A DNA stretch of 64,000 nucleotides from an uncultured Clostridia bacterium (GTDB lineage: Bacteria; Bacillota; Clostridia; Oscillospirales; Acutalibacteraceae). The DNA lies in contig CALWJA010000105.1 in the NCBI GenBank assembly GCA_944380875.1, positions 1 to 64,000 on the forward strand, given 5' to 3'. This document shows positions 3,258-52,969 of this stretch, in pieces. A program made the translations under genes and the position numbers. The notes under the pieces are model-generated. The model saw only the letters and a list, made by a program, of their open reading frames with translations. It ran no database searches and was not told the origin of the DNA. How positions within the stretch are numbered: position 1 is the stretch's first letter; each line of letters begins with the position of its first letter.

Positions 3258-5672
3258 TTACTGTCTCAGACCGGAAGATGCATTTGAAACTTTTCCAGAT
3301 ACAGGAACCTGTACAGAAGCATCTTTTACAGAAAGAGGCACCGGCTTTCGAACCAACGCTTTTTCCAATACCTGCTCGATTCGTTCAACAGGAACAAATT
3401 CCACATGCTCTTTAACGGTTTTATCCACTTCATAGAGATCAGGCTCATTATCCGCTGGAATTAAAACCGTTTTAATTCCGGCGCGATATGCGGCCATCGT
3501 CTTTTCTTTCAGCCCACCGATAGGCAACACTCTTCCCAATAAAGTGATTTCCCCCGTCATGGCCACATCGTGCCGAATAGGGATTCCCGTAAGGGCAGAA
3601 GTTATAGCTGTTGCCATAGCAGTTCCCGCAGAAGGGCCATCTTTTGGTACAGCTCCTTCCGGTGCATGGATATGGATATCATATTTGGTATAAAAATCAT
3701 GGGAAATTCCCAGAGTATCCGCACGACTGCGAATACAGCTAATTGCCGTTCTGGCAGACTCTTTCATTACATCTCCCAAAGAACCGGTTAACTCTATTTT
3801 TCCGGTTCCATCCATAACGGCTACTTCCAGCGGAAGAATTTCTCCTCCAATGCTTGTCCAGGCAAGGCCGTTAACTAGACCCACCTCATCTGTTTTATGA
3901 AGCTTGTCTTTTTTGAAACGCTTTGGCCCTAAAAGTTCTTCCAGCATTGCAGGGGTTATCCGGATGCGTATAGACGGATCCTCCACGATTTTTTTTGCGC
4001 ACTTACGGCAAAGAGAAGCTATCTGCCGCTCCAAAGTACGAACACCCGCTTCAGCGGTGTAGCCGTCGATAAGCTCATGGAGGGCAGCCGGAGTAATCTG
4101 CATATTCTTCCCGGATATGCCGTTTTTCTTTCTTTCTTTAGGAATCAGATGCCTAGTAGCGATCTGAAATTTTTCCTCGTGGGTGTAGCTGCCAAGAGAA
4201 ATCATGTCCATTCTGTCCAGCAAAGGAGCAGGAATTGTGCTGGCATCGTTTGCTGTGGTAATAAACAAAACATCGCTTAAATCAAAAGGCATATCAATAT
4301 AGTGGTCATAAAATGCAGTATTTTGATCCGGGTCTAAAACTTCCAACAAAGCAGACGCAGGATCCCCTCTGTAGCTGCTGCCTAATTTATCAATCTCATC
4401 CAGAAGCAGAAGAGGATTCTTAGTACCAGCCTGTTTCAATGCGGAAATAATCCGCCCTGGCATAGAACCAATATATGTTTTTCGATGGCCCATAATATCG
4501 GATTCATCCCGAACACCGCCAAGAGAAACACGGACGTATTTCCTGTTCACAGCCTCGGCAATAGAACGAGCGATAGAGGTTTTACCCACACCCGGAGGGC
4601 CCACAAGACAGATAATCTGCCCTTTTACATCCGGAGCAAGCTTTTTCACCGCCAGGATCTCCAAAATCCGTTCTTTTACCTTATCCAATCCATAATGGTC
4701 TCTGTCAAGGATCTTTTTGGCTTTAGCGAGATCAATGTGCTCTTTCGTTTCCTTGCCCCAGGGAAGCTCCAAACAAGTTTCCAAATATGTCAGGATTACA
4801 CTTCCCTCATGGGAACCAACAGGCATTTTTGCCAGACGATCACATTCCTTCAGAAGCTTTTTCTGCTGTTCTTCCGGTATGGAAGCCTGTAAAATCTTCT
4901 CCCGAAGTTCGTCCGCCTCTTCCTGGGGGGAATCATCCTCTCCCAGTTCATAGGCGATAGCTTTCATCTGTTCCCGGAGATAATACTCCCTCTGATTCTG
5001 GTCTATTTGTTCCTTTGCCTTTTCATTGATCTCGTTTTCAATGGAAAGAACCTTTATCTCATTCTCCAGAATAGAATTCAGCTTTTGCAGCCTGCGAACC
5101 GGATGATTCTGTTCCAGAACCTCCTGCTTCTTTGTATAATCCAGCATCGTGTTCATCGCGATGTAATCTGCCAGCTTACCGCAATCCTTCTGGCGCACTA
5201 CCCCCAGAATAATATCCGGAGGAACCTTCGCATAATTGCGTACATACTCTTCAAAAATATTTTGGGTATACCGTAAAAGGGCTTCTGTCTTATGGGTTTC
5301 CTTATAAGAAACCTCTTCCGCCCTCTCTACCTCGGCTTCCAAAAAAGGTTTTTCTTTTGTGAAAGACAATAATCTTGCACGATAAAGACCTTCTGCAAAA
5401 AGGCGCACGCCTTCATCGGAATGGCGAACCACTTGCTTAATTTTCGCCACAACTCCCATAGAATACATTTGCTTAAATCCGGGATCATTGTCTCCCAGAT
5501 CTCTTTGCGCTACCAGAAAGATAGTCTGATCCCGCTCCATAGCATCTGCTAAGGCTAAAATAGATTTCTTTCTTCCAACATCAAATTGAATCATCATCTC
5601 AGGAAATATCACAAGTCCGCGCAGCGCCAAGGCCGGCATCCTACGTGTTTCCTTCAGACCATAGGTCTCCAT
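3258..5672 (-). CDS. lon: ATP-dependent protease Lon
   Basis: Cytoplasmic AAA+ serine protease of about 804 residues, degrading damaged and regulatory proteins. It has an N-terminal substrate-binding domain, a Walker [10 protein letters not shown], a Walker [10 protein letters not shown], and the C-terminal protease domain with the Ser-Lys dyad: serine in PKDGPSAG and lysine in GGLKEK. The frame is open further upstream, but the ATG at 5672 ([11 protein letters not shown]) has AGGAGG six to seven bases before it. It is the LonA type with no membrane segments. It sits between clpX and engB. Confidence 0.96.
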
Positions 5673-5750
5673 AACGATCCTCCTATTCAAAATGGCCGCT
5701 GCAAGGCACGGTCTCCGCGCCCCGGCAGCAGCCACCTGCAAAACATTTTC

Positions 5751-7064
5751 TCACGCGGTGTCTTTTCTTCCGCGTTTTTTTGGAGCGGTAATTTTTATTT
5801 TGACAGGTTTCCTGTCTGCATTATGCACCAGCTCCGGAGCTCCGCCATTTACCGTCTCCGGTGTAATGACGATTTTTTCAATAGTATAATCAGATGGAAC
5901 ACTATACATCAGCGGTGTGAGGAATTCCTCCATAACGCTGCGCAGTCCCCTGGCGCCTGTATGAAGAGCGATTGTCTTTTTAGCAATTTCTCTGAGCGCC
6001 TCCGGTGTAAATTCCAGATTGACTTGATCCAGCCCAAAAAGCTTCTGATACTGGCTCAGCAAGCTGTTTTTCGGCTCTGTAAGGATGCGAACCAGCGCTT
6101 CCTCATCTAAGCCGCTCAAAGAAGCAATAACAGGAAGACGCCCAACCAGTTCCGGTATAAGGCCGAATTTCACCAAATCGTGAGGTGTTACATTCTTCAT
6201 CCAGCTGGTGGTATCCAACTCTGCCTTACTTTTTACCTCTGCGCCAAAGCCCATGGAAGAAGATCCGGTTCTTCTTTCAATAATCTTTTCCAGACCATCA
6301 AAAGCGCCGCCACAAATAAACAGAATATTAGAAGTATCAATCTGTAAAAATTCCTGCTGAGGATGCTTTCTTCCCCCTTGAGGAGGAACATTGGAAACGG
6401 TTCCTTCCAGGATCTTCAAAAGCGCCTGCTGCACACCCTCGCCGCTTACATCTCTTGTGATGGACGGATTCTCAGACTTACGGGCAATTTTATCGATTTC
6501 GTCGATATAGATAATCCCTTTTTCCGCCCGCTCAATATCGAAATTAGCGGCCTGAATCAAGCGAAGAAGAATATTTTCCACATCTTCCCCTACATATCCG
6601 GCTTCCGTTAGAGTCGTAGCATCTGCGATAGCAAAAGGAACATCCAAAATTCTTGCCAATGTTTGGACAACAAATGTTTTTCCAACTCCGGTAGGCCCAA
6701 GGAGCAGAACATTGCTTTTGGTCAGCTCCACATCGTCCTCTTTTCCGAAATAAATCCGCTTATAATGATTATAAACGGCAACAGAAAGAGCAATCTTGGC
6801 TTCTTCCTGGCCAATTACATATTCATCCAAACCCGCCTTGATTTCCTGAGGCTTAGGAAGCACAGTCACCGTTTCCGGAGCATAGCGCGTGGATTTACGG
6901 GTAGCCAAGCTGTTTTCATCTTCCAATATAGACATACAAAGCTCTATACATTCATCACAGATATAAACACCCGGGCCAGCAATCAGCCTTCTCGCGTCTC
7001 CCTGAGGCTTCCCGCAGAAAGAACAGCATACGCCTCTGTCGTTTGTCTCATCATTACCGGACAT
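5751..7064 (-). CDS. clpX: ClpX unfoldase subunit
   Basis: AAA+ ATPase that unfolds substrates and feeds them to ClpP. The 437-residue protein begins with the zinc-binding domain (C14-x2-C17 and C36-x2-C39). It has Walker A GPTGVGKT and Walker [10 protein letters not shown], and the sensor regions are normal. The C-terminal tail is basic (KKRGRKDTA). The gene lies 53 bases after clpP and about 80 before lon. Confidence 0.97.
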
Positions 7065-7117
7065 GGAGCTTCACCAACCTTCTAACTCTCTCAGTGATAC
7101 AAATCAAAATAAAAACC

Positions 7118-7699
7118 TCAATGCCTTTCCAGGACTTTATCGATTAAGCCATATTCCAATGCCTGCTGAGCAGTCATGAAATTGTCTCTCTCTGTATCCC
7201 GTGCGATTTCTTCCAAAGGACGGCCTGTCTTTTCGGCTAAGATCGCGTTAAGCTTGTTTTTCGTCGCTATAATGTGATCCGCGTGGATACGAATATCCGT
7301 TGCCTGCCCTTGCGCGCCTCCGCTGGGCTGATGGATCATAATGTCGCTGTTGGGAAGAGCATAGCGTTTTCCCTTTGCGCCTGCAGCCAAAAGGAAGGCA
7401 CCCATGCTGGCTGCCATTCCCATGCAAATTGTAGAAACATCGCATTTTACATACTGCATAGTATCATAAATAGCCATTCCAGCCGTAACGGATCCGCCGG
7501 GACTATTTATATAAAGACTGATGTCCTTGGTAGGATCCTGCCCCTCCAGATACAGAAGCTGTGCCACAACCAAACTGGAAGTGGTGTCGTTTACCTCTTC
7601 CGTAAGCATAATGATACGGTCGTTTAAAAGGCGGGAAAAAATATCATAAGAACGTTCCCCGCGATTGGTTTGTTCTACAACATAAGGAACCAAACTCAT
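7118..7699 (-). CDS. clpP: ClpP protease subunit
   Basis: Serine peptidase that forms the 14-mer proteolytic chamber used with ClpX and other Clp ATPases. The catalytic triad is visible at Ser98 (MAASMGA), His123 (IMIHQPSGG) and Asp172 (RDNFM). The length of 193 residues is standard. It is located between tig and clpX as in many Firmicutes. A second ClpP-fold protein, TepA, is encoded at 39209-40009. Confidence 0.97.
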
Positions 7700-7736
7700 C
7701 TTAAAACCACCTGTCTCCGCGCCTCATAAAACGGAC

Positions 7737-7759
7737 GCCGGCCTGCGCGGGAGGCCGGC
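7737..7759 (-). terminator. GC-rich hairpin between tig and clpP
   Basis: Perfect 8-bp stem GCCGGCCT / AGGCCGGC with a 7-base loop; extended by weak flanking pairs. On the minus strand only a short T-run (CCGTTTT) follows about ten bases on. It may attenuate tig-to-clpP readthrough or protect the mRNA end. Confidence 0.4.
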
Positions 7760-7791
7760 ATCTTTCTAAGGATTGGATATTTTTGAACTCT

Positions 7792-9093
7792 TTATTCAGC
7801 TTCTTCAGCAGTTTCGGTAATTGCCAGGGCGTCGCGAACCACACCGGCTGCCTTCTCTACGGCAATATCCTGTGCCAAAGCTTCTTCCGTAATCATCTTC
7901 TTTACGTTTTCAACGTCCATATCGTAAGCCTTGGCAATTTTCTCGTATTCGGCGTTGATCTCTTCCTCTGTAGGCTTAATAGCTTCCAGCTCTGCAATCT
8001 TTTCCAAAGCCAAACGAACCTTTACCTGACGCTCTGCCTGAGGACGGAAAGAAGCACGGATGGAATTTGCATCCATTCCGGTATATTTCAGATATGTTTC
8101 AAAGTTCAGGCCCTGAGACTGGAGACGATAGCTGAAATCGCGAATATCATCGTTGATGCGGTTCTCATACATAGCTTCCGGAATTTCAGCCTGTACCAGC
8201 TCAACCAGCTTATCAACCATCTGGTTTTCCACTTCATCGTTGGCGCGTTTTTCAGCAGCTTCCGTCAGATTCTTTTTGATATCCTCACGATATGCTTCTA
8301 CCGTATCGAAGTCGCTGACGTCCTTAACAAACTCGTCGTCAAATTCGGGGAGCTCTTTTGCTTTGATTTCATGGAGCTTTACCTTAAATACGGCTTCTTT
8401 GCCAGCAAGCTCTTCAGCCTGATATTTCTCCGGGAAAGTAACGTTTACATCGAATTCATCACCGGTGTTGTGGCCGATAATCTGATCTTCAAAGCCCGGG
8501 ATGAACTGGCCGGATCCCAGCGTCAAGCTGTAATTTTCGCCCTTTCCGCCTTCAAAAGCGGTGTCGCCCACAAAACCTTCAAAATCAATTACTGTGATGT
8601 CGTCCTTCTGAGCAGCGCGGCCTTCTACCGTTACCATTCTGGAGTTGCGGTCCAAAACCTTCTTTACTTCTGCATCCACATCTTCTTCAGAAATGGAAAC
8701 CGGTTTCTTAGTTACAGCAATTCCTTTATAGTTTTCGATCGTTACTTCCGGCTTAGTGGTTACAGTTGCCTTGAATACAAGGCCGTCCTTACCTGCGGAA
8801 ACCAGCTCAAAATCAATTTTATCTTCTACAAATTCAACGCCAGCCGCCTTGATAGCATCGTCCAGAGCATCAGGATACAATGCGTTTATGGCGTCTTCAT
8901 AGAATACATTCTCACCATAATATTTTTCAACAAAAGCACGGGGAGCCTTGCCCTTCCGGAAACCGGGAATCATAATTTTCTTATTTTCCCTGCGGTATGC
9001 CGCTTCCAGAGCTTTTTCAAACTCCTCACCGCTAATTTCGATTTCCAACTGGCTGCGGTTGGTATCAACCTTTGTGCATGATTTCAGACTCAT
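7792..9093 (-). CDS. tig: Trigger factor chaperone
   Basis: Ribosome-associated folding chaperone with peptidyl-prolyl isomerase activity. The 433-residue protein has the N-terminal ribosome-binding domain with the signature GFRKGKAPR. A central FKBP-type domain (roughly residues 150-240, VIDFEGFVGDTAFEGG and IPGFEDQIIG) and a helical C-terminal arm follow. It is the first gene of the tig-clpP-clpX-lon-engB cluster and has a strong promoter. A 432-residue open frame on the other strand is only its shadow. Confidence 0.97.
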   Translation of the reverse strand: MSLKSCTKVDTNRSQLEIEISGEEFEKALEAAYRRENKKIMIPGFRKGKAPRAFVEKYYGENVFYEDAINALYPDALDDAIKAAGVEFVEDKIDFELVSAGKDGLVFKATVTTKPEVTIENYKGIAVTKKPVSISEEDVDAEVKKVLDRNSRMVTVEGRAAQKDDITVIDFEGFVGDTAFEGGKGENYSLTLGSGQFIPGFEDQIIGHNTGDEFDVNVTFPEKYQAEELAGKEAVFKVKLHEIKAKELPEFDDEFVKDVSDFDTVEAYREDIKKNLTEAAEKRANDEVENQMVDKLVELVQAEIPEAMYENRINDDIRDFSYRLQSQGLNFETYLKYTGMDANSIRASFRPQAERQVKVRLALEKIAELEAIKPTEEEINAEYEKIAKAYDMDVENVKKMITEEALAQDIAVEKAAGVVRDALAITETAEEAE

Positions 9094-49930: not shown

Positions 49931-50890
49931 ATGAACACATATTGTCCGGAAGGCTGGCGGATTTCCACACCGGAAAACCAGGCATCTCTGCAATCTCCTG
50001 CCAGTCTGCAGGCAGCCTGCGCAGAAGGTAAAATCATAGAAGGAAGAGCTATAGTCTGCGACAGTGCACACAACCTAATAGTAGATCTTGGCTGCATGAA
50101 GGGGATTATTCCACGCGAAGAAGGCGCGCTGGGCATCCGGGAAGGAACCGTAAAAGATATCGCCATTATTTCCCGGGTAAACCGCCCTGTCTGTTTCCGT
50201 ATTACCGGTTTCAGTGAAACAGAATCCGGCGTTCCTATCGCCCAACTCTCCCGACGGGCGGCGCAGGAACAATGTAAAAAAGAGTATATTCAAAACCTTA
50301 TGCCTGGTGATATAATTGACGCACGGATTACACACCTGGAAAGTTTTGGTGCATTCGCGGATATCGGCTGCGGAATAGTAGCCTTGCTTCCCATTGACGC
50401 GATCTCTGTTTCCAGAATCGATCATCCCAGAGAACGATTTACTGTGGGAATGGATATAAAGGTTTTGATACGATCCATAGAAGGGAACCGCATCACACTA
50501 AGCCACAAAGAACTGCTTGGAACCTGGGAAGAAAATGTTGCGAATTTTAAACCGGGAGAAACCGTGGCAGGTATTGTGCGCAGTGTAGAACCCTATGGTA
50601 TTTTCGTGGAGCTAGCACCAAATCTGGCTGGATTAGCTGAACCAAAAGAAGGCGTGCTTCCCGGACAGCAGGCCAGCGTATACATAAAAAGTATTCTTCC
50701 CGGGCGCATGAAAGTTAAGCTGGTAATCATAGATACATTCCAGTATGAATATCGTCCCGCTCTACCGGAATATAAGTTTAGTGGAAACCATATGGATCGT
50801 TTCGTCTATTCCCCTCCGGAATGCGGAAAAGAAATCCTAACGGACTTTACCAAACAAGAAACAGATAAAAATCAGCTGCATAAGGTATAG
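49931..50890 (+). CDS. S1 RNA-binding domain protein
   Basis: A 319-residue protein with three S1-like OB folds: a divergent one at about 33-95, a clear one at about 120-200 (PGDIIDARITHLESFGAFADIG), and a third at about 205-270 (PGETVAGIVRSVEPYGIFVELAPN). It resembles ribosomal S1 and CvfB/YitL-type RNA-binding proteins. No nuclease or other domain was seen. The C-terminal 50 residues are unassigned. The role in translation or RNA metabolism is inferred. Confidence 0.85.
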   Translation: MNTYCPEGWRISTPENQASLQSPASLQAACAEGKIIEGRAIVCDSAHNLIVDLGCMKGIIPREEGALGIREGTVKDIAIISRVNRPVCFRITGFSETESGVPIAQLSRRAAQEQCKKEYIQNLMPGDIIDARITHLESFGAFADIGCGIVALLPIDAISVSRIDHPRERFTVGMDIKVLIRSIEGNRITLSHKELLGTWEENVANFKPGETVAGIVRSVEPYGIFVELAPNLAGLAEPKEGVLPGQQASVYIKSILPGRMKVKLVIIDTFQYEYRPALPEYKFSGNHMDRFVYSPPECGKEILTDFTKQETDKNQLHKV

Positions 50891-51025: not shown

Positions 51026-52054
51026 TTATACATTTTCCAAATGACTGCGCATGTATGCGGCCCTGCATTGATCCAGCGTTTCTCCTTCTTTGGGTTCAGC
51101 GGTAAGAGAAAGCGTTGCGGGCTGTACTTCTGTAATCCAGGTAGCGATTTCTTCATATCCAGGAGACGAATAAAAGCCTTGTGAAACCCCAAGCCGCAGA
51201 TCGGATAGCAACTCCATACACTCATTCTGGGGCAGCAAACGGGCAGAAGCCAGGATACCTTTGGAACGGAAGGCCTTATCCTCCGCTTCAATCTGGCGGG
51301 AAAGCGTTTTCCTGGCAGCTCTTTCCTGTGTAATCACCTGAAGAGCCATACTTCGAAGATTAAATAAAGCTTCCTGCTCCGATATTCCAAGAGAAACCCG
51401 GTTCGTGAGACGATACACAAAAGCTTTCCCTTCCGGTTCCATACTTTCTCTTAAATCGATTCCCAACCGCGAAAGTCCGGAGGCTACCCTGGGAACAGCC
51501 CCATTTCCCGCCAAAGCGGGCAAATGTAAAAGCAGGGAAGCGTGCATACCTGTTCCCAAATCGGCCGGATTCTGCGTCAGATAGCCGAAAGTATCATGAA
51601 AAGAAAAAGATAGCTCCTTAGATAAAATGCGTTCCAGCTTATCTGCACTGCTATAGGCGCCCTCCAGATCAAGCCCGGGCCTACTTGTATGGATTTGTAA
51701 ATGGTCTTCCCCATTTAATACAATGGACAAGGACTCATCCTGCGTTAGAAGAACGCCTTTTCCATCTCTGCGCACAATATATTCCGGTGTAACAAGACCT
51801 TTTTCCACAAAAGAAATAGCCTGTGCTTTGTCTATTTCTTTAAAGGAGCAAAAAGAAAAAAGTCCTCCTAAGGAAAGATGCCCGTCTTCCACCGTAGAAA
51901 GCACGGCTTCTATGACCTGTTTTTGTTCAGCAGACCGCATCCGACGGACAAACGGAATGCCCTCTATATTTCTAGAAAGATAAATATGAGTGCTTACAAC
52001 TACATCTTGTTCTTCACCGGGATACTCATACCATTTTTTCGCTTCACTCATCAT
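51026..52054 (-). CDS. mcsB: Protein arginine kinase McsB homologue, probably altered active site
   Basis: Member of the ATP:guanido phosphotransferase family that marks proteins with phosphoarginine for ClpCP. Length is about 342 residues. Where active McsB has STRIRLARN this protein has STHIYLSRN; NEEDHIR is NGEDHLQ; GTGLRAS is GTGMHAS. Four arginines expected to bind ATP phosphates are thus H, Y, Q and H, while the second Glu of NEEDH is kept. The C-terminal RDxxRA phosphoarginine pocket reads LDQCRA. The start at 52054 has GGAGG six bases upstream and overlaps mcsA. Activity is doubtful. Confidence 0.87.
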   Translation of the reverse strand: MMSEAKKWYEYPGEEQDVVVSTHIYLSRNIEGIPFVRRMRSAEQKQVIEAVLSTVEDGHLSLGGLFSFCSFKEIDKAQAISFVEKGLVTPEYIVRRDGKGVLLTQDESLSIVLNGEDHLQIHTSRPGLDLEGAYSSADKLERILSKELSFSFHDTFGYLTQNPADLGTGMHASLLLHLPALAGNGAVPRVASGLSRLGIDLRESMEPEGKAFVYRLTNRVSLGISEQEALFNLRSMALQVITQERAARKTLSRQIEAEDKAFRSKGILASARLLPQNECMELLSDLRLGVSQGFYSSPGYEEIATWITEVQPATLSLTAEPKEGETLDQCRAAYMRSHLENV

Positions 52055-52532
52055 GTTTCGCCTCCAGCATACGAATTTCATCCCGCAGTGTTACTGCATC
52101 TTCAAAATTTTCTGCTTCAATGGCTTCTTTAAGCTGCTGTTTTTTTGCTAAGAGCATCCCGGATTTCTTTTCCTGAGAAATTTGAAGAGGATTTCCGTCC
52201 GGAGTTTTTCCTCTATGCCGGCTGCTCCCATGAATTTGCTCCACAACGGGAAGAAGCCTGGTATAGAAGGTTTCATAACATTCCGCGCATCCAACCCGGC
52301 CTGTACGCACAATATCATCCCATGTTGCACCGCATGTGCAGCGTTCTTCCTCCTGCAATTTCTGCGGATCCAATCTCAAAAGATTTAAACCTCGCCCCAG
52401 CTCAGCAAAAAGGTTTCCATATCCCAGTTTTCTGGCACATTCTCCGCAAAGGGAGTATTCAGCCAATTCCCCGTTAACAACAGTTTTTACATGTGTTGTA
52501 GCGTTTCTTTTACCGCAAGCCTGACAAATCAT
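52044..52532 (-). CDS. mcsA: McsA, zinc-binding activator of McsB
   Basis: A 162-residue protein with two zinc-finger-like Cys pairs (CQACG ... CGECA and CTCGATWDDIVRTGRVGCAEC) and a C-terminal UVR domain (KKQQLKEAIEAENFEDAVTLRDEIR). It normally activates McsB and, in Bacillus, belongs to the ctsR-mcsA-mcsB-clpC operon. Neither ctsR nor clpC is adjacent here. The McsB gene overlaps its end. Confidence 0.92.
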   Translation of the reverse strand: MICQACGKRNATTHVKTVVNGELAEYSLCGECARKLGYGNLFAELGRGLNLLRLDPQKLQEEERCTCGATWDDIVRTGRVGCAECYETFYTRLLPVVEQIHGSSRHRGKTPDGNPLQISQEKKSGMLLAKKQQLKEAIEAENFEDAVTLRDEIRMLEAKHDE

Positions 52533-52828: not shown

Positions 52829-52969
52829 ATGTGTAACAATCTTTTCGGTGGCTGCGGTTCTTGCTCTTGGATCATCATCCTCATTCTCATCCTGTTCTGC
52901 TGCTGCGGCAACAACGGCTACAATAACAACAATGATGGCTGCGGCAATGGCTGTGGCTGCGGCTGCTAA
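52829..52969 (+). CDS. Very small Cys/Gly-rich membrane peptide
   Basis: A 46-residue peptide, MCNNLFGGCGSCSWIIIL onward: a Cys/Gly N-terminus, a hydrophobic segment (about 14-23), and an N- and C-rich end with GCGNGCGCGC. About a quarter of the residues are cysteine. Such peptides are annotated in clostridia as high-cysteine or YjcZ-like sporulation proteins; a coat or envelope role is inferred. AAGGAGG lies about ten bases before the ATG. A hairpin terminator follows. Confidence 0.75.
   Translation: MCNNLFGGCGSCSWIIILILILFCCCGNNGYNNNNDGCGNGCGCGC

Follow-up and report, generated by a model that had tools for sequence, protein, structure and literature searches.

The gene pseudo-mcsB, in the 64-kb window analysed here (the whole stretch of 64,000 nucleotides), encodes a McsB homologue that, judged by the residues it has lost, is very probably a pseudokinase. 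Such loss has occurred repeatedly in the family and accompanies loss of ClpC, a pattern not visible from the window alone. The reading we favour, with moderate confidence, is that the McsA-pseudo-McsB pair has been retained in an adaptor or scaffold role independent of phosphorylation after loss of the pathway, perhaps for ClpXP. The locus comprises:

51026 to 52054, minus strand: pseudo-mcsB, a McsB homologue of 342 amino acids without R29, R31, R126, R177, C168, E213 and the arginine of the phosphoarginine (pArg) pocket
52044 to 52532, minus strand: mcsA, 162 amino acids, two zinc fingers (the second CxC for CxxC) and a UVR motif
49931 to 50890, plus strand: S1-domain protein, convergent with mcsB and marking the place of clpC in relatives

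The frame of pseudo-mcsB is intact from 52054 down to 51026; the plus strand over the same positions contains many stops. The original prediction had claimed an intact frame, which is borne out but on the minus strand, and its four motif readings (STHIY, NGEDHLQ, GTGMHAS and LDQCRA) are all correct in the 342-residue translation. Residues R29 to R342 are numbered here as in the solved Geobacillus McsB (6fh1), with which the protein aligns at 172 bits over residues 5-337. The replacements seen in this alignment are R29H, R31Y, R126Q, R177H, C168N, H92G and R338L, the last being the change from RDxxRA to LDQCRA in the pArg pocket. The GEGSE sequence of the lid has become shorter and altered, and E213 is absent. 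Retained are R34, E122, D123, H124, R208 (the fifth phosphate-site arginine), D339 and R342. The claim that most nucleotide-binding arginines are replaced therefore stands; C168N, H92G and the lid without E213 had been overlooked. The arginines are replaced and not shifted, as the alignment is ungapped at the motifs. The same kind of change is carried by two other species of the window's genus (g1), so that it cannot be put down to chance, and a frameshift or sequencing error is excluded by the agreement of these congeners. Within the genus the replacements are H/Y/Q in two species and Q/F/L in the third.

Membership of the McsB family and the guanido kinase fold is clear; the match to Pfam PF00217 is 136 bits against a cut-off of 22.4, and homology spans both the kinase and the dimerisation domains. 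Five NCBIfam McsB models also match, all under their cut-offs (for example 272 against 385 bits, and 231 against 500), and the protein thus lies below the equivalog threshold for a functional McsB. An AlphaFold model made from two sequences, its own and that of a relative with 81% protein identity (L034), has a pLDDT of 33, too low to be used. No second, canonical mcsB was found: pseudo-McsB is the sole guanido-kinase homologue detected by the PF00217 search in its own genome (2.76 Mb, 99.99% complete).

In B. subtilis McsB, R29K, R31K, R34K, R125K, R176K, R207K and R337K are each reported to abolish the radioactive phosphoprotein signal, and C167S is described as a kinase-inactive allele (PMC7235348). 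Arg29, Arg31, Arg126, Glu122, Glu213 and Cys168 are given as active-site residues in a review (PMC12387690). Two of the seven arginines essential in B. subtilis are kept in pseudo-McsB (R34 and R207) and five are replaced (by H, Y, Q, H and L); further, the catalytic Cys167/168 has become Asn and the lid Glu212/213 is absent. The pseudokinase that had been proposed is supported by this loss of the catalytic cysteine and of five of seven arginines reported as individually essential (PMC7235348), and a pseudokinase is indicated rather than an artefact because mcsA overlaps mcsB and the decayed mcsB of relatives is under purifying selection. The alternative offered at the same time, a changed activity, would mean a guanido kinase or other phosphotransfer enzyme with a different substrate or nucleotide, and this seems highly improbable. 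In its favour, E122 and R208 are kept, and in two other genera (g40 and g47) the changes are R-to-K ones and C168, E122 and, for the most part, E213 remain, so that the lineages are not all equally dead. However, pseudo-McsB itself has lost phosphate-binding residues, catalytic Cys and lid Glu, and the replacements differ within the genus (H/Y/Q against Q/F/L), unlike those of a conserved new active site. Nor is a changed activity supported by the genome, where the writer site, the YwlE-type eraser motif, the ClpC reader-protease and the CtsR repressor are missing together.

The motif CxGNTCRSP, which we take to be that of YwlE-type arginine phosphatases, has no exact match in this genome, and the single low-molecular-weight phosphatase (LMW-PTP) match carries NICRS. 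A family search found no CtsR in the 99.99% complete genome. The Clp_N search returned ClpB alone and no ClpC, and ClpB is also the best match of a ClpC N-domain profile (E 3.9e-7). The gene is thus not part of a ctsR-mcsA-mcsB-clpC stress operon, both ctsR and clpC being absent from the genome, nor, in view of the missing YwlE-type motif, of a recognisable protein-arginine phosphorylation pathway. An assembly gap hiding ClpC is unlikely given the completeness of the genome, the absence of ClpC from two congeners as well, and the position of mcsB in the interior of its contig, where the neighbouring S1 gene is present.

To place these losses, 300 genomes of the same family were sampled; PF00217 was matched in 249 of the 300, with a long low-scoring tail. 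McsB was read in 172 genomes: 3 from the window's genus, the 60 with the next-lowest scores, 35 with middle scores, the 30 best and 44 others picked mainly for genus spread. Two rows cut by contig ends, L036 (visibly decayed) and L040, were dropped to leave 170. Eight catalytic positions were scored (R29, R31, E122, R126, C168, R177, R208 and E213), and ClpC was called present where a profile built from 24 sequences matched its N-domain at E 1e-18 or better, and absent where the match was weak (about 1e-13 to 1e-4) or lacking. Low scorers are over-represented because they were fetched on purpose, and the 62 of 170 proteins with six or fewer catalytic residues are to be read in the light of that enrichment; 20 more McsBs with canonical scores, fetched later, all had 8/8.

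Among the 33 ClpC-less genomes, 32 have six or fewer of the eight residues. The single exception (G097, genus g96) has 8/8, is 77% complete and has a contig that ends with mcsB. The 137 ClpC-bearing genomes divide into 105 with 8/8, 2 with 7/8 and 30 with six or fewer. The association of ClpC absence with McsB decay is strong by Fisher's test (p = 3e-16), with the caveat that relatedness makes the genomes non-independent. By genus, 11 ClpC-less genera are all decayed and one (g96, the same genome) is intact; of those with ClpC, 64 are intact and 12 decayed, and 5 genera are mixed. In a McsB tree built with the eight catalytic columns left out, the intact or decayed state requires 14 changes and the ClpC state 6, at least 4 of the latter being forced by starred branches; an independent-pairs test of ClpC against decay found 4 pairs on starred branches, too few for significance. 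The association is phylogenetically clustered. Several decayed proteins form long branches. The window's genus and g78 group as sisters (96*), but where they belong among the ClpC-less genera is unsure; the tree sets them apart from the others, though g78 shares a TPR-like gene, and g1 the S1 neighbour, with some of these, and the number of ClpC losses is uncertain for this reason.

Comparisons within genera fit an order in which ClpC was lost first and decay came after, although this order is not proven. In g132, one genome (G221) has ClpC and 8/8, and two (G133 and G285) have no ClpC and 0/8; in g16, two (G146 and G290) have ClpC and 8/8, G017 has CtsR, no ClpC and 5/8 (C168Y, R177K, E213G), and G228 lacks both ClpC and McsB. 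Decay does not require ClpC loss, since the McsB of 30 of the 137 ClpC-bearing genomes is decayed. In g22, g34, g58, g76, g77, g108 and others, the decayed mcsB still adjoins clpC, and CtsR is often found in the genome; a dead McsB could there exert phosphorylation-free control of ClpC or CtsR. A coherent second type of change (R29K, R31A/S, R126K, R208T/S) was seen in the genera g47 and g40, which are also ClpC-less (loci L083, L069, L076, L089, L092 and L093); C168 and E122, and mostly E213, are kept, and by these residues their McsB could retain some chemistry.

The other parts of the pathway were followed in 80 genomes: 31 ClpC-less with decayed McsB, 26 ClpC-bearing with at least one of the eight residues lost, and 23 intact. 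CtsR is found in 23/23 intact genomes, in 15/26 of the decayed ones with ClpC and in 1/31 of those without. As a search for the LMW-PTP family by itself does not separate tyrosine from arginine types, the YwlE-type motif was searched for; it is present in 22/23, 1/26 and 0/31 genomes respectively. Kinase decay is therefore accompanied by loss of the phosphatase motif also in genomes that still have ClpC. The motif search misses near variants, and the reading of ten extra hits gave CTGNSCRSA in an intact genome (G206) and CTGNTCRGP in one of the second group with 7/8 (G271). Degenerate-looking phosphatase P-loops accompany decayed McsB in two cases, CTENKARSV in L211 (G133) and GTGDTCRSC in L209 (G044), which on these motifs are possible pseudo-YwlE proteins. 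ClpX was found in all 31 ClpC-less genomes.

The order of genes shows what has gone from around mcsA-mcsB. In g51, where ClpC is present and McsB has 8/8, the order in one locus (L114) is ctsR-mcsA-mcsB-clpC, a TPR-like gene, then a convergent S1-domain gene; a second (L113) matches it as far as its sequence reaches, and CtsR matches lie at those places. The TPR-like gene follows mcsB directly in 18 ClpC-less loci (g26, g54, g78, g103, g119, g127), with the S1 gene beyond it in those of g54 and g119. By this comparison clpC and ctsR have vanished from both sides of the retained mcsA-mcsB. Related loci of g51, g54 and g119 thus have a convergent S1-domain gene on the far side of mcsB (and of the TPR-like gene); in the window only the S1 gene follows mcsB, and the TPR-like gene was not seen adjoining mcsB in the window's genus. 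The TPR-like protein, of about 225 amino acids and uncharacterised, follows clpC in g51 and mcsB where clpC is gone; Pfam gave weak TPR matches only. Its genes are:

L113, 314 to 1231, minus strand: TPR-like gene of g51
L114, 7416 to 8093, plus strand: TPR-like gene of g51
L043-L048, L051, L057, L058, L063, L064, L067, L068, L071, L081, L084, L105 and L109: TPR-like gene in other loci

On the other side of mcsB, mcsA (52532-52044) is directly upstream and its 3' end overlaps pseudo-mcsB. The McsA protein scores 123 bits with NCBIfam, under the cut-off of 210, and has a UVR match in Pfam. The McsA-McsB module is thus in place, zinc finger 2, which contacts McsB, being present as the CxC variant. 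In all 34 of 34 ClpC-less loci mcsA with zinc finger 2 adjoins mcsB, the CxC variant occurring in g1 and g78. The first zinc finger is lost in g127 and g132; McsA of L058, L063, L067, L038 and L039 is without it, with the second finger and the UVR motif present. No CtsR operator was found in the window with up to two mismatches to the consensus, and no Rfam match at 45-60 kb. An ORF of 46 amino acids, rich in Cys, Gly and Asn and with a hydrophobic stretch, lies immediately upstream of mcsA on the other strand (52829-52969, plus strand).

In a rival reading the gene is a fading relic, unneeded after ClpC loss and drifting to deletion slowed by chance only. We consider this unlikely. Some observations would agree with it: 24 of the 58 ClpC-less genomes among the 300 have no McsB match at all, a count that includes incomplete genomes; among the ClpC-less genomes of g16, one retains a McsB that is partly decayed and G228 retains none; and the catalytic positions vary freely even within the window's genus. 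Against it, no stop lies within any listed mcsB match of the surveyed genomes, and mcsA and zinc finger 2 are kept throughout the ClpC-less loci. Further, dN/dS of decayed mcsB in close ClpC-less pairs is 0.038 (g78), 0.046 (g54), 0.050 (g127) and 0.093 (g47), and 0.09-0.18 in deeper unsaturated pairs, so that all unsaturated pairs lie at 0.04-0.18 apart from g132 (0.28). Compared with 0.014-0.040 in close intact pairs, selection is somewhat relaxed but clearly purifying. These clean values come from relatives and not from g1, where dS, at 2.4 to infinite, is saturated or nearly so; dN there is low, 0.138 for L001-L002.

The pattern of conservation also argues against a relic. For 67 positions conservation reaches 95% or more in the 105 intact McsBs. 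In 22 ClpC-less proteins from seven genera (g1, g26, g54, g78, g103, g119 and g127), 16 of these positions drop below 50% and 29 remain at no less than 90%; the 29 include no catalytic position of the eight (Fisher p = 0.008). R273 and E288, named as the dimer salt bridge of McsB (PMC12387690), are conserved at 0.91 and 0.91 in the same 22. At the level of conserved residues, then, dimer and fold positions persist and catalytic ones do not.

We infer the loss of kinase activity, the binding of McsA and the adaptor role from these observations. ClpC and CtsR are gone from the lineage, as is the YwlE-type phosphatase to judge by its motif, and arginine-phosphate tagging would be gone with them. 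A catalytically dead McsB would still be made with, and probably still be bound to, its activator McsA, and the pair would serve as a substrate-binding scaffold or adaptor without phosphorylation. A binding protein is the best reading of pseudo-McsB since activator, dimer contacts and reading frame are all kept, and a conserved non-catalytic role of McsA-McsB is somewhat favoured on balance. It is a more tentative suggestion that, on ClpC loss, the kinase pair repeatedly becomes a non-catalytic adaptor or scaffold for another protease or chaperone.

ClpXP would be the likeliest remaining client machine, speculatively, and as the actual partner it is a doubtful proposition. Its genes in the window are:

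5751 to 7064, minus strand: clpX, PF06689 match at 6921-7028; proposed alternative AAA+ partner, unlinked to mcsAB
7118 to 7699, minus strand: ORF adjoining clpX, named from its sequence and presumably clpP-like

About 42 kb from mcsAB, at 3258-9093 (minus strand), is a cluster of ORFs that read as trigger factor, clpP, clpX and lon; its products are candidate partners of McsAB in a ClpC-less genome. No clpX or other protease gene adjoins mcsAB in the 64-kb window. Alternatively, the pair could control ClpE, or some other Clp unfoldase that has escaped recognition, without kinase activity and in place of ClpXP, which we regard as quite improbable. ClpE has no Clp_N domain, and the Clp_N search would miss it. 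Further in favour of this alternative, ClpE is a reported McsB interactor, and its N-terminal domain and the one in ClpX are described as related (PMC7235348). Turning back to ClpXP, the half-life of MgsR in B. subtilis is given as 12.3 min with McsB C167S and 17.7 min in an mcsB deletion, and a ClpX adaptor role of McsB was proposed for MgsR without proof (PMC7235348). McsB is also reported to promote loss of GudB-CR in B. subtilis without ClpC and without ClpP, an effect its authors judged rather indirect (PMC4285742); as this turnover is independent of ClpP as well as ClpC, it does not favour ClpXP.

With the McsB kinases of Bacillus, Geobacillus and Staphylococcus (6fh1, 8wtb, 8gqd) pseudo-McsB shares full-length homology, the kinase and dimerisation domains, a gene directly after mcsA and the dimer salt bridge positions. 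Unlike them it lacks phosphate-binding arginines, the catalytic Cys, the lid Glu and the arginine of the pArg pocket, and its genome lacks ClpC, CtsR and the YwlE-type motif. It resembles C167S and the other kinase-dead mutants of B. subtilis McsB in that, from its residues, no kinase activity is expected, and for C167S adaptor function towards MgsR is reported to remain (PMC7235348); in contrast to those mutants, pseudo-McsB is natural, fixed, recurrent and found in cells without ClpC. Bacterial Ser/Thr pseudokinases are likewise described as keeping the kinase fold past catalysis with a presumed regulatory role, but pseudo-McsB has the guanido-kinase fold, an unrelated family; in the review describing them McsB was found in the reference list only (PMC12599244). 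No report of a natural pseudo-McsB or a ClpC-less McsAB was found in titles and abstracts of the open literature, which is weak evidence as most subscription papers fall outside it.

A dead kinase whose protease, repressor and phosphatase are lost, in a McsA-McsB pair that is nevertheless under selection, amounts to a natural separation-of-function experiment, and the old suspicion of a kinase-independent role of McsB becomes directly testable. The annotation "protein arginine kinase" is often wrong in the sampled family. If the adaptor reading is true, the ancestral McsAB would already have had a function independent of both kinase activity and ClpC.
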